In this document: positions 46,936 to 48,802 of the stretch, piece after piece | Numbering within the stretch: the stretch's first letter is position 1 | Layout: each line of letters opens with the position of its first letter | DNA from: Prochlorococcus marinus str. MIT 9515 | GTDB taxonomy: Bacteria; Cyanobacteriota; Cyanobacteriia; PCC-6307; Cyanobiaceae | Reading direction: 5' to 3' | Assembly (NCBI RefSeq): GCF_000015665.1 | Contig: NC_008817.1 | Span: 434,001-498,000 of the forward strand | DNA length: 64,000 nt | Made by a program: the position numbers and the translations under genes | The notes under the pieces: generated by a model | Seen by the model: the letters and a program-made list of their open reading frames with translations, nothing else | What the model was told of the DNA's origin: nothing | Database searches by the model: none

Positions 46936-47008
46936 CGCGCCGTGGAGGACTTGAACCCCCGACATCAGGTTTTGGAGACCTGCGTTCTACCAACTGAACT
47001 AACGGCGC
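46936..47008 (-). tRNA. tRNA-Trp (CCA)
   Basis: A 73-nt tRNA on the minus strand. The acceptor GCGCCGT pairs with ACGGCGC, with discriminator G. The anticodon stem CAGGT/ACCTG has loop CTCCAAA, giving anticodon CCA. The T-loop TTCAAGT is standard. CCA is not encoded. It lies between rplS and the 62-aa gene. Confidence 0.95.
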
Positions 47009-47064
47009 AATAAAAAATATTATAAGCGCCTTTATGACCATTAGGTTGAAATAACTTTACAACC

Positions 47065-47535
47065 TTATCGATCAAAGCGTTGTTTTACGCGAGTAGCTTT
47101 TCCTACTCTATCCCTTAGATAGAATAACTTAGCTCTCCTTACTTTACCTCTACGTTCAACTTTTAGAGAGGCAACTTGCGGACTATGTAGCATAAATACT
47201 CTTTCGACTCCAATTCCCTGAAAAATTCTTCTTACTGTAATCGTTTGGTTAAGACCGCCATGTCTCTTTGCAATAACAACTCCTTCGTAAGGTTGAACCC
47301 TTTCTTTGTTACCTTCTGTGATTTTCACTCCGACTTTAACTGTATCTCCTACATAAATTTCGGGTAATTGTTTTTTTAACTGTTCACTTTCAAATTCTTT
47401 TATTAAGTTTGATGAACTATGAATTTTTTCAGTTTGGGAAATAGATGCTTTTTTTTCATTTTCAACAGTAATTACTGTAGATTTGTCAGTTTGGTTAATG
47501 ATTTCTGACTCATTTTCTTGTTTCTCTTTTGCCAT
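47065..47535 (-). CDS. rplS: ribosomal protein L19 with N-terminal extension
   Basis: 50S protein at the 30S-50S interface. The core starts near residue 47 ([20 protein letters not shown]) and includes [30 protein letters not shown] and the [20 protein letters not shown] tail, quoted in part. The first ~45 residues are a charged, Gln/Ser/Lys-rich extension of low complexity. Bacterial L19 is usually 115-120 aa against 156 here. The extension is likely disordered. tRNA-Trp follows 56 bp downstream on the same strand. Confidence 0.96.
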
Positions 47536-47579
47536 TTTATGCTCAATAATTCTACAAGATTCTTATTTTAACCTTTCAA

Positions 47580-47876
47580 CTAGCCTTTAGTAACCTTTTT
47601 AGCAAATACAAATTTTTTTGAAAACATTATGAACCAAGTTATTGGCATCCAAATAAGTCCTTAAGAATGTAAGGTTACACAAATTAATCCTTCATTATCT
47701 CCAAGTCACTCTCCTTCGTATAGAGGCATTAACCACTGAATATTATCTCTTGAATAGCCTAATAAATCTCTCAATATGCTTTGAAAATAACCCTGTCAAA
47801 GCTGAAATGAATAACGGGGGGAAACCCAAGGTGCCAATGATTTATGAAATTGCCTAGAATTCTTAATAAAATTCAT
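47580..47876 (-). pseudogene. decayed gene, probable PepSY-associated membrane protein
   Basis: The 427-bp space between rplS and map holds a broken reading frame of 99 codons (ATG at 47876, TAG ending at 47580). It is interrupted by stops at codons 27, 57 and 72. The frame starts MNFIKNSRQFHKSLAPWV. The next stretch, FPPLFISALTGL, is only readable one frame over, as if a single T was lost from TTTTCCCCCC. The original frame resumes at DLLGYSRDNIQWLMPLYEGE, then a stop where Trp is expected, LGDNEGLICVTLHS, a stop where Leu is expected, then GLIWMPITW. Reassembled, it looks like a short PepSY-associated TM protein. The pseudogene call is solid. The family is moderate. Confidence 0.75.
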
Positions 47877-47962
47877 TTTCTGTTTTCTTACTGATAGATT
47901 AAAATGGCCAAGCAGTCTATGGCTATTTTGATGATATTTACCTATTTCCATTATTTATTCCA

Positions 47963-48802
47963 ATGAAACATTTTGCAGATCTTTTATTAAATAAAAATAA
48001 TTCAAGATCTAACGATCAAGTCCCTTTTATTCAAAGAAGAAGAGGAATAGAAATAAAGTCTTCGAGGGAAATAAAATTAATGAAGAAATCTAGCAGGATC
48101 GTAGCAACTGTTTTGCGAGAAATAAATGACTTGATAGAACCTGGAATGAGTACAAAAGATTTAGATGATTTTGCAGAAAAGAGAATTAGAGAAATGGGCG
48201 CAGCGCCAAGTTTTAAGGGTTATCATGGTTTCCCATCCAGTATTTGTGCCAGTATAAATAATGAAGTTGTGCACGGCATTCCAAATAAAAATGTAACAAT
48301 TAAAGATGGAGATCTTGTGAAAATTGATACAGGAGCTTATTTAGATGGCTTTCACGGTGATAGTTGCATCACTATTTGTGTTGGTCAAGTAAGTGATCAA
48401 GCCAAAAAACTTAGTGAAGTAGCCTTAGAAGCTTTATTCTCAGGACTTTCGAAAATTAAATCGGGAAATACACTGCTTGATGTGGCTGGAGCTATTGAGG
48501 ATGTTGTGAGATTAAATGGGTTTAGTGTTGTTGAAGACTATACAGGTCATGGGGTGGGACGAAATCTTCACGAAGAACCATCTGTTTTTAATTTTCGAAC
48601 TAATGATTTACCGAATATCATTCTTCGTGAGGGGATGACGTTGGCTGTTGAACCTATCGTTAATCAAGGCAGTAAGTTTTGTAAAACTTTAAATGACAAA
48701 TGGACAGTAATAACAAAAGATGGGAAATTATCAGCACAATGGGAACATACAATTGTCGTAATGAAAGATGGTATTGAAATATTGACAGACAGAGAATTTT
48801 AA
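47963..48802 (+). CDS. map: methionine aminopeptidase, type I
   Basis: Removes the initiator Met from new proteins. The five metal ligands of the M24A fold are visible: Asp in [14 protein letters not shown] (two, about 121-134), His in [11 protein letters not shown], Glu in AVEPIV and Glu in QWEHTIVV. At 279 aa there is a short N-terminal extension ([17 protein letters not shown]) ahead of the catalytic core. The stop overlaps the convergent SDR gene by 4 bp. Confidence 0.95.

Follow-up and report, generated by a model that had tools for sequence, protein, structure and literature searches.

One kind of system close to the locus described here is the unitary pseudogene of reduced bacterial genomes. 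The locus resembles it in that a single-copy gene, here called gene A, took up indels and nonsense changes and then drifted. It is unlike the typical case in that its relatives show many stages, starting with a single nonsense change and ending with a clean deletion, and in that one end of the gene looks as if it were held by selection. As for the causes of genome reduction in Prochlorococcus, PMC3940434 attributes the early phase to the loss of many genes of small effect, and PMC10837832 attributes it to a low population size, under which pseudogenes arose and were later deleted; the gene A locus is compatible with either account.

Gene A has invariant histidines in a helical region, like the reductases of the PepSY_TM family (PF03929; FoxB, CrpH and relatives), and PMC13038864 describes haem binding via such residues, and the reduction of metal complexes, for the larger proteins of this family. 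All members compared in PMC13038864, CrpH and FoxB among them, are predicted to cross the membrane with four or more segments and carry a large periplasmic part, whereas the gene A protein has about 102 amino acids and two long helices and lacks a periplasmic PepSY domain, and the copy studied here is, unlike FoxB and CrpH, dead. A further comparison is with promoters placed inside upstream genes. This is a known class (internal-primary start sites) in the strain MED4, where 122 are given for N-replete cells in Table 2 of PMC5607370. The gene A locus would resemble this class, but differ from its usual members in that the gene around the putative element is dying while the element outlives it.

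A disabled gene between rplS and map

The DNA analysed (the window) is a stretch of 64,000 nucleotides, G000:C1:434001-498000, from the genome of Prochlorococcus marinus MIT 9515, which forms a single contig of 1,704,176 bases. Within it the gene A pseudogene lies at 47568..47876 on the minus strand, identified by its match to an intact relative with internal stops and lesions. The former reading frame ran from an ATG at 47876 to a TAA at 47570-47568, toward an ORF 32 bp downstream (47065..47535, minus strand) that we take, with the initial annotation, to be rplS (ribosomal protein L19). On its other side lies the divergent map gene (methionine aminopeptidase; ORF at 47963..48802, plus strand), which has matches in 95 of 101 genomes, some of them to a weak paralogue only. 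The initial annotation had placed the frame at 47580-47876; the start is right, but the gene reaches 47568 and keeps its full length of 309 bp, position 47580 belonging to a premature TAG at codon 99.

The lesions, read in one assembly of one strain of the species, were otherwise largely as first described. In the alignment with intact relatives, one base is lost at the TTT-CCCCCC run at codon 18-19 (GGGTTT/CCCCCC; about 47820..47827, minus strand), and one extra base at codon 31-32 (about 47779..47787, minus strand) compensates for it; the stop at codon 27 exists only in the shifted frame between these two indels. Beyond them, premature stops replace Trp at codon 57 (TGA, within 47703..47711), Leu at codon 72 (TAA, within 47658..47666) and Glu at codon 99 (TAG, within 47577..47585), all on the minus strand. 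The last of these went unmentioned in the initial annotation, as did the changes of H47 to Q and of H53 to Y, two of three histidines (H11, H47 and H53) that do not vary among the 13 aligned relatives. When read through, the window copy matches an intact relative over 102 of 102 residues at 65% identity with four internal stops (E = 3.6e-36), which excludes a chance resemblance.

That the decayed gene encoded a PepSY_TM membrane protein, as originally proposed, agrees with the score of the intact copy in G015, which was used in place of the broken window copy: 32 bits against PF03929 with a cut-off of 28.8 (E 1.5e-7). The same copy matches the cytochrome b561 family weakly (E 0.031, below the cut-off) and no NCBIfam family. 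In the predicted structure of the intact protein (mean pLDDT 82) helices span residues 3-38, 43-54 and 60-89 and would lie in the membrane; the C-terminal end is probably disordered, judging from a pLDDT of 42-44 at codons 91-102. A Foldseek search with the predicted structure gave no PDB match at E <= 0.001, a second structure comparison reached Z values up to 6.2, and a gene A profile found no match among PDB sequences; the two structure comparisons thus yielded no convincing relative by fold. A literature search on PepSY in Prochlorococcus turned up no title on gene A. From the histidine chemistry of the larger family members we would guess, by analogy, that the lost protein may have been a small haem-binding or metal-redox accessory.

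Selection on the window copy is relaxed. Measured against 11 members of its group, G015 among them, its dN/dS is 0.41-0.60, while intact gene A copies compared in eight pairs give 0.07-0.11, and the same 11 pairs give 0.05-0.07 for map and 0.09-0.15 for rplS. Against the more distant G060, G003 and G265 the ratio is 0.33, 0.25 and 0.14, which fits the smaller share that the dead branch has in these comparisons. The private changes of the window copy comprise 23 non-synonymous and 2 synonymous ones, and the 11 other tips carry 0-9 private non-synonymous changes (G094 the most). Codons 1-31 (47784-47876) hold one of the 23 (binomial 0.0024, a post hoc test), a scarcity that is not predicted by a uniformly neutral gene.

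The loss was dated by a three-point estimate in which the synonymous changes of map and rplS served as the clock and the dN/dS before the loss was set at 0.09. This gives a neutral fraction of 0.40 for the terminal branch of the window genome (95% bootstrap 0.19-0.72); two other reference pairs gave 0.40 and 0.44, with upper limits of 76% and 84%, and controls on four intact tips gave -0.06 to 0.09. The private synonymous count in gene A is low (2 of 63 sites), and its terminal dS of 0.05-0.11 lies below the 0.26-0.29 of map and rplS, which makes the date depend on the flanking genes; the neutral share would be larger if gene A's own dS were used as the clock. In the map tree the sister of the window genome is G093 (support 98/79), in which gene A is intact. 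The loss therefore came after the split from G093, yet with about 40% of the branch neutral it is not fresh, and the recent loss that the initial annotation had supposed gives way to one that is not clearly recent.

Intact copies and other losses at the locus

A comparison with other Prochlorococcus genomes, as suggested at the outset, found an open orthologue in 202 of the 266 genomes of the genus. A match of any kind is present in 238 of the 266, and by hand tally 203 match over the full length (at least 98 of 102 residues, E <= 2.3e-50), all stop-free except G091; in the remainder of the 238 the copy is broken or runs off a contig, or the match is to a weak paralogue only. Of the 266 genomes, 53 were left unscored; as far as these were followed by hand, either no map orthologue was found or a contig ends at or near the gene. 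All 29 other loci that were read (L003-L031) have, at the rplS-map place, an open gene A of full length that starts with ATG. Beyond the genus, 253 genomes of a 300-genome sample of the family have a match, a figure that includes this genus and weak paralogue matches, and the order rplS-gene A-map is found in all eight genomes of other genera that were read, with gene A open there. We take G015 to be MED4, G040 to be MIT9215, G310 to be MIT9313, G273 to be SS120 and G342 to be NATL2A, and use high-light, low-light and Synechococcus-like as group labels of our own.

Four apparent truncations (G087, G181, G208 and G167) were set aside, as their contigs end inside gene A. At least seven draft assemblies (L063, L067, L069, L081, L222-L224) break off in the 309 bp of gene A or directly next to it, four of the contig ends lying inside the gene and three about 83-134 bases before map; this may be chance, or something may be breaking the assembly.

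Loss of gene A has occurred repeatedly, in several separate events at the same place, and the gene is dispensable in several lineages. The loss that the initial annotation placed in this lineage is not specific to it: G040, G091, G111 and G157 carry different breaks, and the five broken copies known in the genus (these and G000) have no lesion in common. Two bases are missing from G040, which also has several stops; one base is missing from G111; in G157 the ATG has become ATT and there is one extra base; and G091 has a single TAG at Trp76. The gene is cleanly gone from G113, G115, G080, G097, G261 and G122, where the gap between rplS and map is 252-299 bp as against about 430 elsewhere, and these six genomes form one clade in the map tree with moderate support (94/86).

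Faint remnants were found by a profile scan in three of 13 loci of other genera that lack a tblastn match. With a corrected profile L130 scores 50 bits, L129 23 and L127 16, compared to a maximum of 7.4 among 1800 shuffled frames; the first profile had given 42 to 51, 23 to 24 and 17 bits, with a shuffle maximum of 6.3. L129 and L127 belong to the same genus. Two further candidates, L121 and L123, were rejected, since they scored 8.8 and 7.8 bits with the first profile and 7.7 and 9.1 with the corrected one, near the best shuffles in both cases. In eight of the 13 loci the scan found nothing left of gene A. The expectation that remnants are deleted quickly is not borne out here: the full 309 bp persist in the window, and remnants persist in the three genomes of other genera.

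The conserved 3' end of gene A

A conserved element at 47564..47597 (minus strand) covers the 3' end of gene A and is, from its conservation and its one match in the genome, a probable rplS promoter. Its hexamers, chosen by eye, are TTACTA at 47593-47588 and TAAAAT at 47570-47565, separated by a 17 nt spacer, and the TAAAAT hexamer overlies the stop codon of gene A. The best 80 of 276 genes, all distinct, intact and on named contigs, have a synonymous difference (pS) of 0.164 in codons 91-102 compared to 0.430 in codons 1-90; so low a value arose in 1 of 20,000 random 12-codon sets and in 0 of 79 contiguous windows.

The element is also present where the gene is broken or gone. Its 38-base consensus is matched at 37, 38 and 37 of 38 positions in the broken copies of G040, G157 and G111, at 34 in G015 and at 33 in the window copy. 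In the deletion clade it always ends 25 nt before rplS, with 32 of 38 positions matched in G113, G080 and G261, 31 in G097, 29 in G115 and 24 in G122. Each of these matches was equalled by 0 of 300 shuffles, with a margin of one base for G122 and for the intact, divergent G265, so that five of the six deletion genomes stand clearly above the shuffles and G122 is borderline (24 of 38, against a shuffle maximum of 23). A degenerate form of the element, allowing up to 3 mismatches, has one match genome-wide, at 47564-47597. The low pS, and the retention in dead copies and in the deletion clade, mark the element as conserved at the DNA level independently of coding.

The element was not found in nine loci of other genera, where 31 to 255 of 300 shuffles did as well as the best match, and these genera may use another element before rplS. 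By eye, L121, L122, L128, L130, L131 and L135 have the motif GTTACAAT just before rplS, and L123 has as its counterpart GTTACACT ahead of rplS. The GTTACAAT motif would perhaps be an equivalent rplS promoter where the high-light element is missing. At the opposite end of the shared space, 30 bp adjoining map (~47936-47962) show a conservation of 0.92 between the two high-light groups, equal to that of the gene A 3' end, as expected of a map promoter or leader.

A scan with the sigma-70 consensus over 47000-48100 returned 4 sites, with 4.4 expected, and none on the minus strand, where the element lies. Promoters of marine cyanobacteria may differ from this consensus. With the scan silent at the element, its reading as a promoter rests on conservation: the 3' end of gene A probably contains an embedded rplS promoter, which would leave rplS with a leader of roughly 20-25 nt.

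Competing explanations and what the locus means

We regard it as very probable that the window copy is a unitary pseudogene, disabled and then drifting at full length, of a dispensable gene lost several separate times here. The ancestor had a 102-residue, two-helix membrane protein of the PepSY_TM kind, whose gene was read toward rplS and began in the space that it shares with map. Here the gene was disabled, and its middle then drifted while the full length was kept; the tail would have been retained because rplS needs the embedded promoter. The wider reading, in which the rplS promoter sits in the tail of gene A, so that the gene keeps dying while selection pins the tail and clean deletions stop there, seems to us somewhat favoured, judging from sequence comparison.

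The initial annotation had itself named sequencing error and a conserved RNA as alternatives. Errors of sequencing or assembly in an intact gene would be suggested by two of the lesions, which are single-base indels near short homopolymers, but the three in-frame stops, the 23 non-synonymous as against 2 synonymous private changes and the altered invariant His47 and His53 amount to more than a few base-calling slips, and make such errors extremely unlikely. That the stretch now serves as a functional RNA or as a long rplS leader, with the coding lesions irrelevant, might be argued from the DNA-level conservation of the last ~38 bp. It is nevertheless highly improbable, given that 47050-48000 has no Rfam match up to E = 1, that four 3' ends fold no clearly better than shuffles (z 1.5, 0.8, -1.0 and 0.7), that 202 of 203 full-length relatives are open, and that the raised dN/dS of the window copy applies across gene A. 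At the gathering score, Rfam finds two tRNAs only in the whole window, and a conversion of the shared rplS-map space into a regulatory RNA was dropped on these Rfam and folding results. We also consider it quite unlikely that a shortened product is still made, such as one from the 26 codons ahead of the frame-shifted stop: the near lack of private non-synonymous changes in codons 1-31 and an ORF of 51 amino acids from 47951 would agree with it, but the count is small, the test is post hoc, and the product would lack the second helix and the greater part of the conserved core.

The fate of the paralogues bears on a different possibility, namely that the loss of gene A is tied to that of other small PepSY_TM genes, a whole pathway being given up. 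Paralogue B, located elsewhere in the genome, occurs in 49 of 60 genomes that are at least 95% complete (hand count, E < 1e-40), and a search of G000 gave no good match to it. A second small PepSY_TM gene, B2, with neighbours that we take to be murD and a DUF3721-like gene, lies at G000:C1:1357331-1357559 (L233 2335-2560) and in G015 at L234 about 2557-2798. Both copies are frame-shifted close to a T-rich stretch, that of G000 missing one more base than that of G015 and having a late stop; a relative of B2 in G167 (L070) is open. A gene A search of the G000 genome at E <= 10 returned only the broken gene A place, and the paralogue search only pieces of B2, so no working gene A copy exists elsewhere in G000. 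No intact paralogue was thus found in G000, and an intact B or B2 is lacking in 3 of 5 genomes without a working gene A versus 6 of 54 with one (Fisher one-sided 0.022; genomes at least 95% complete, classes set by hand, G167 excluded as its contig ends in gene A and the partial open match of G162 counted as having the gene). The link is weak, however, being post hoc and drawn from a small sample with kinship ignored, and G111 and G091 retain an intact B; a joint loss is tentative and, in our view, unlikely.

Under the preferred reading, a dispensable gene decaying at full length, the loss of gene A is an ordinary type of event at an instructive locus. The locus spans the course of gene loss, from intact copies through one nonsense change, one frameshift and heavily broken copies to a faint remnant and a clean deletion, and lets the pace of substitution be compared with that of deletion in a streamlined free-living bacterium. 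It argues against remnants always being cleared fast, and suggests a simple reason for keeping part of a dead gene. If the promoter reading is true, the promoters of neighbouring genes would set the edges of deletions in streamlined genomes, and the gene A locus would be a measure of this.
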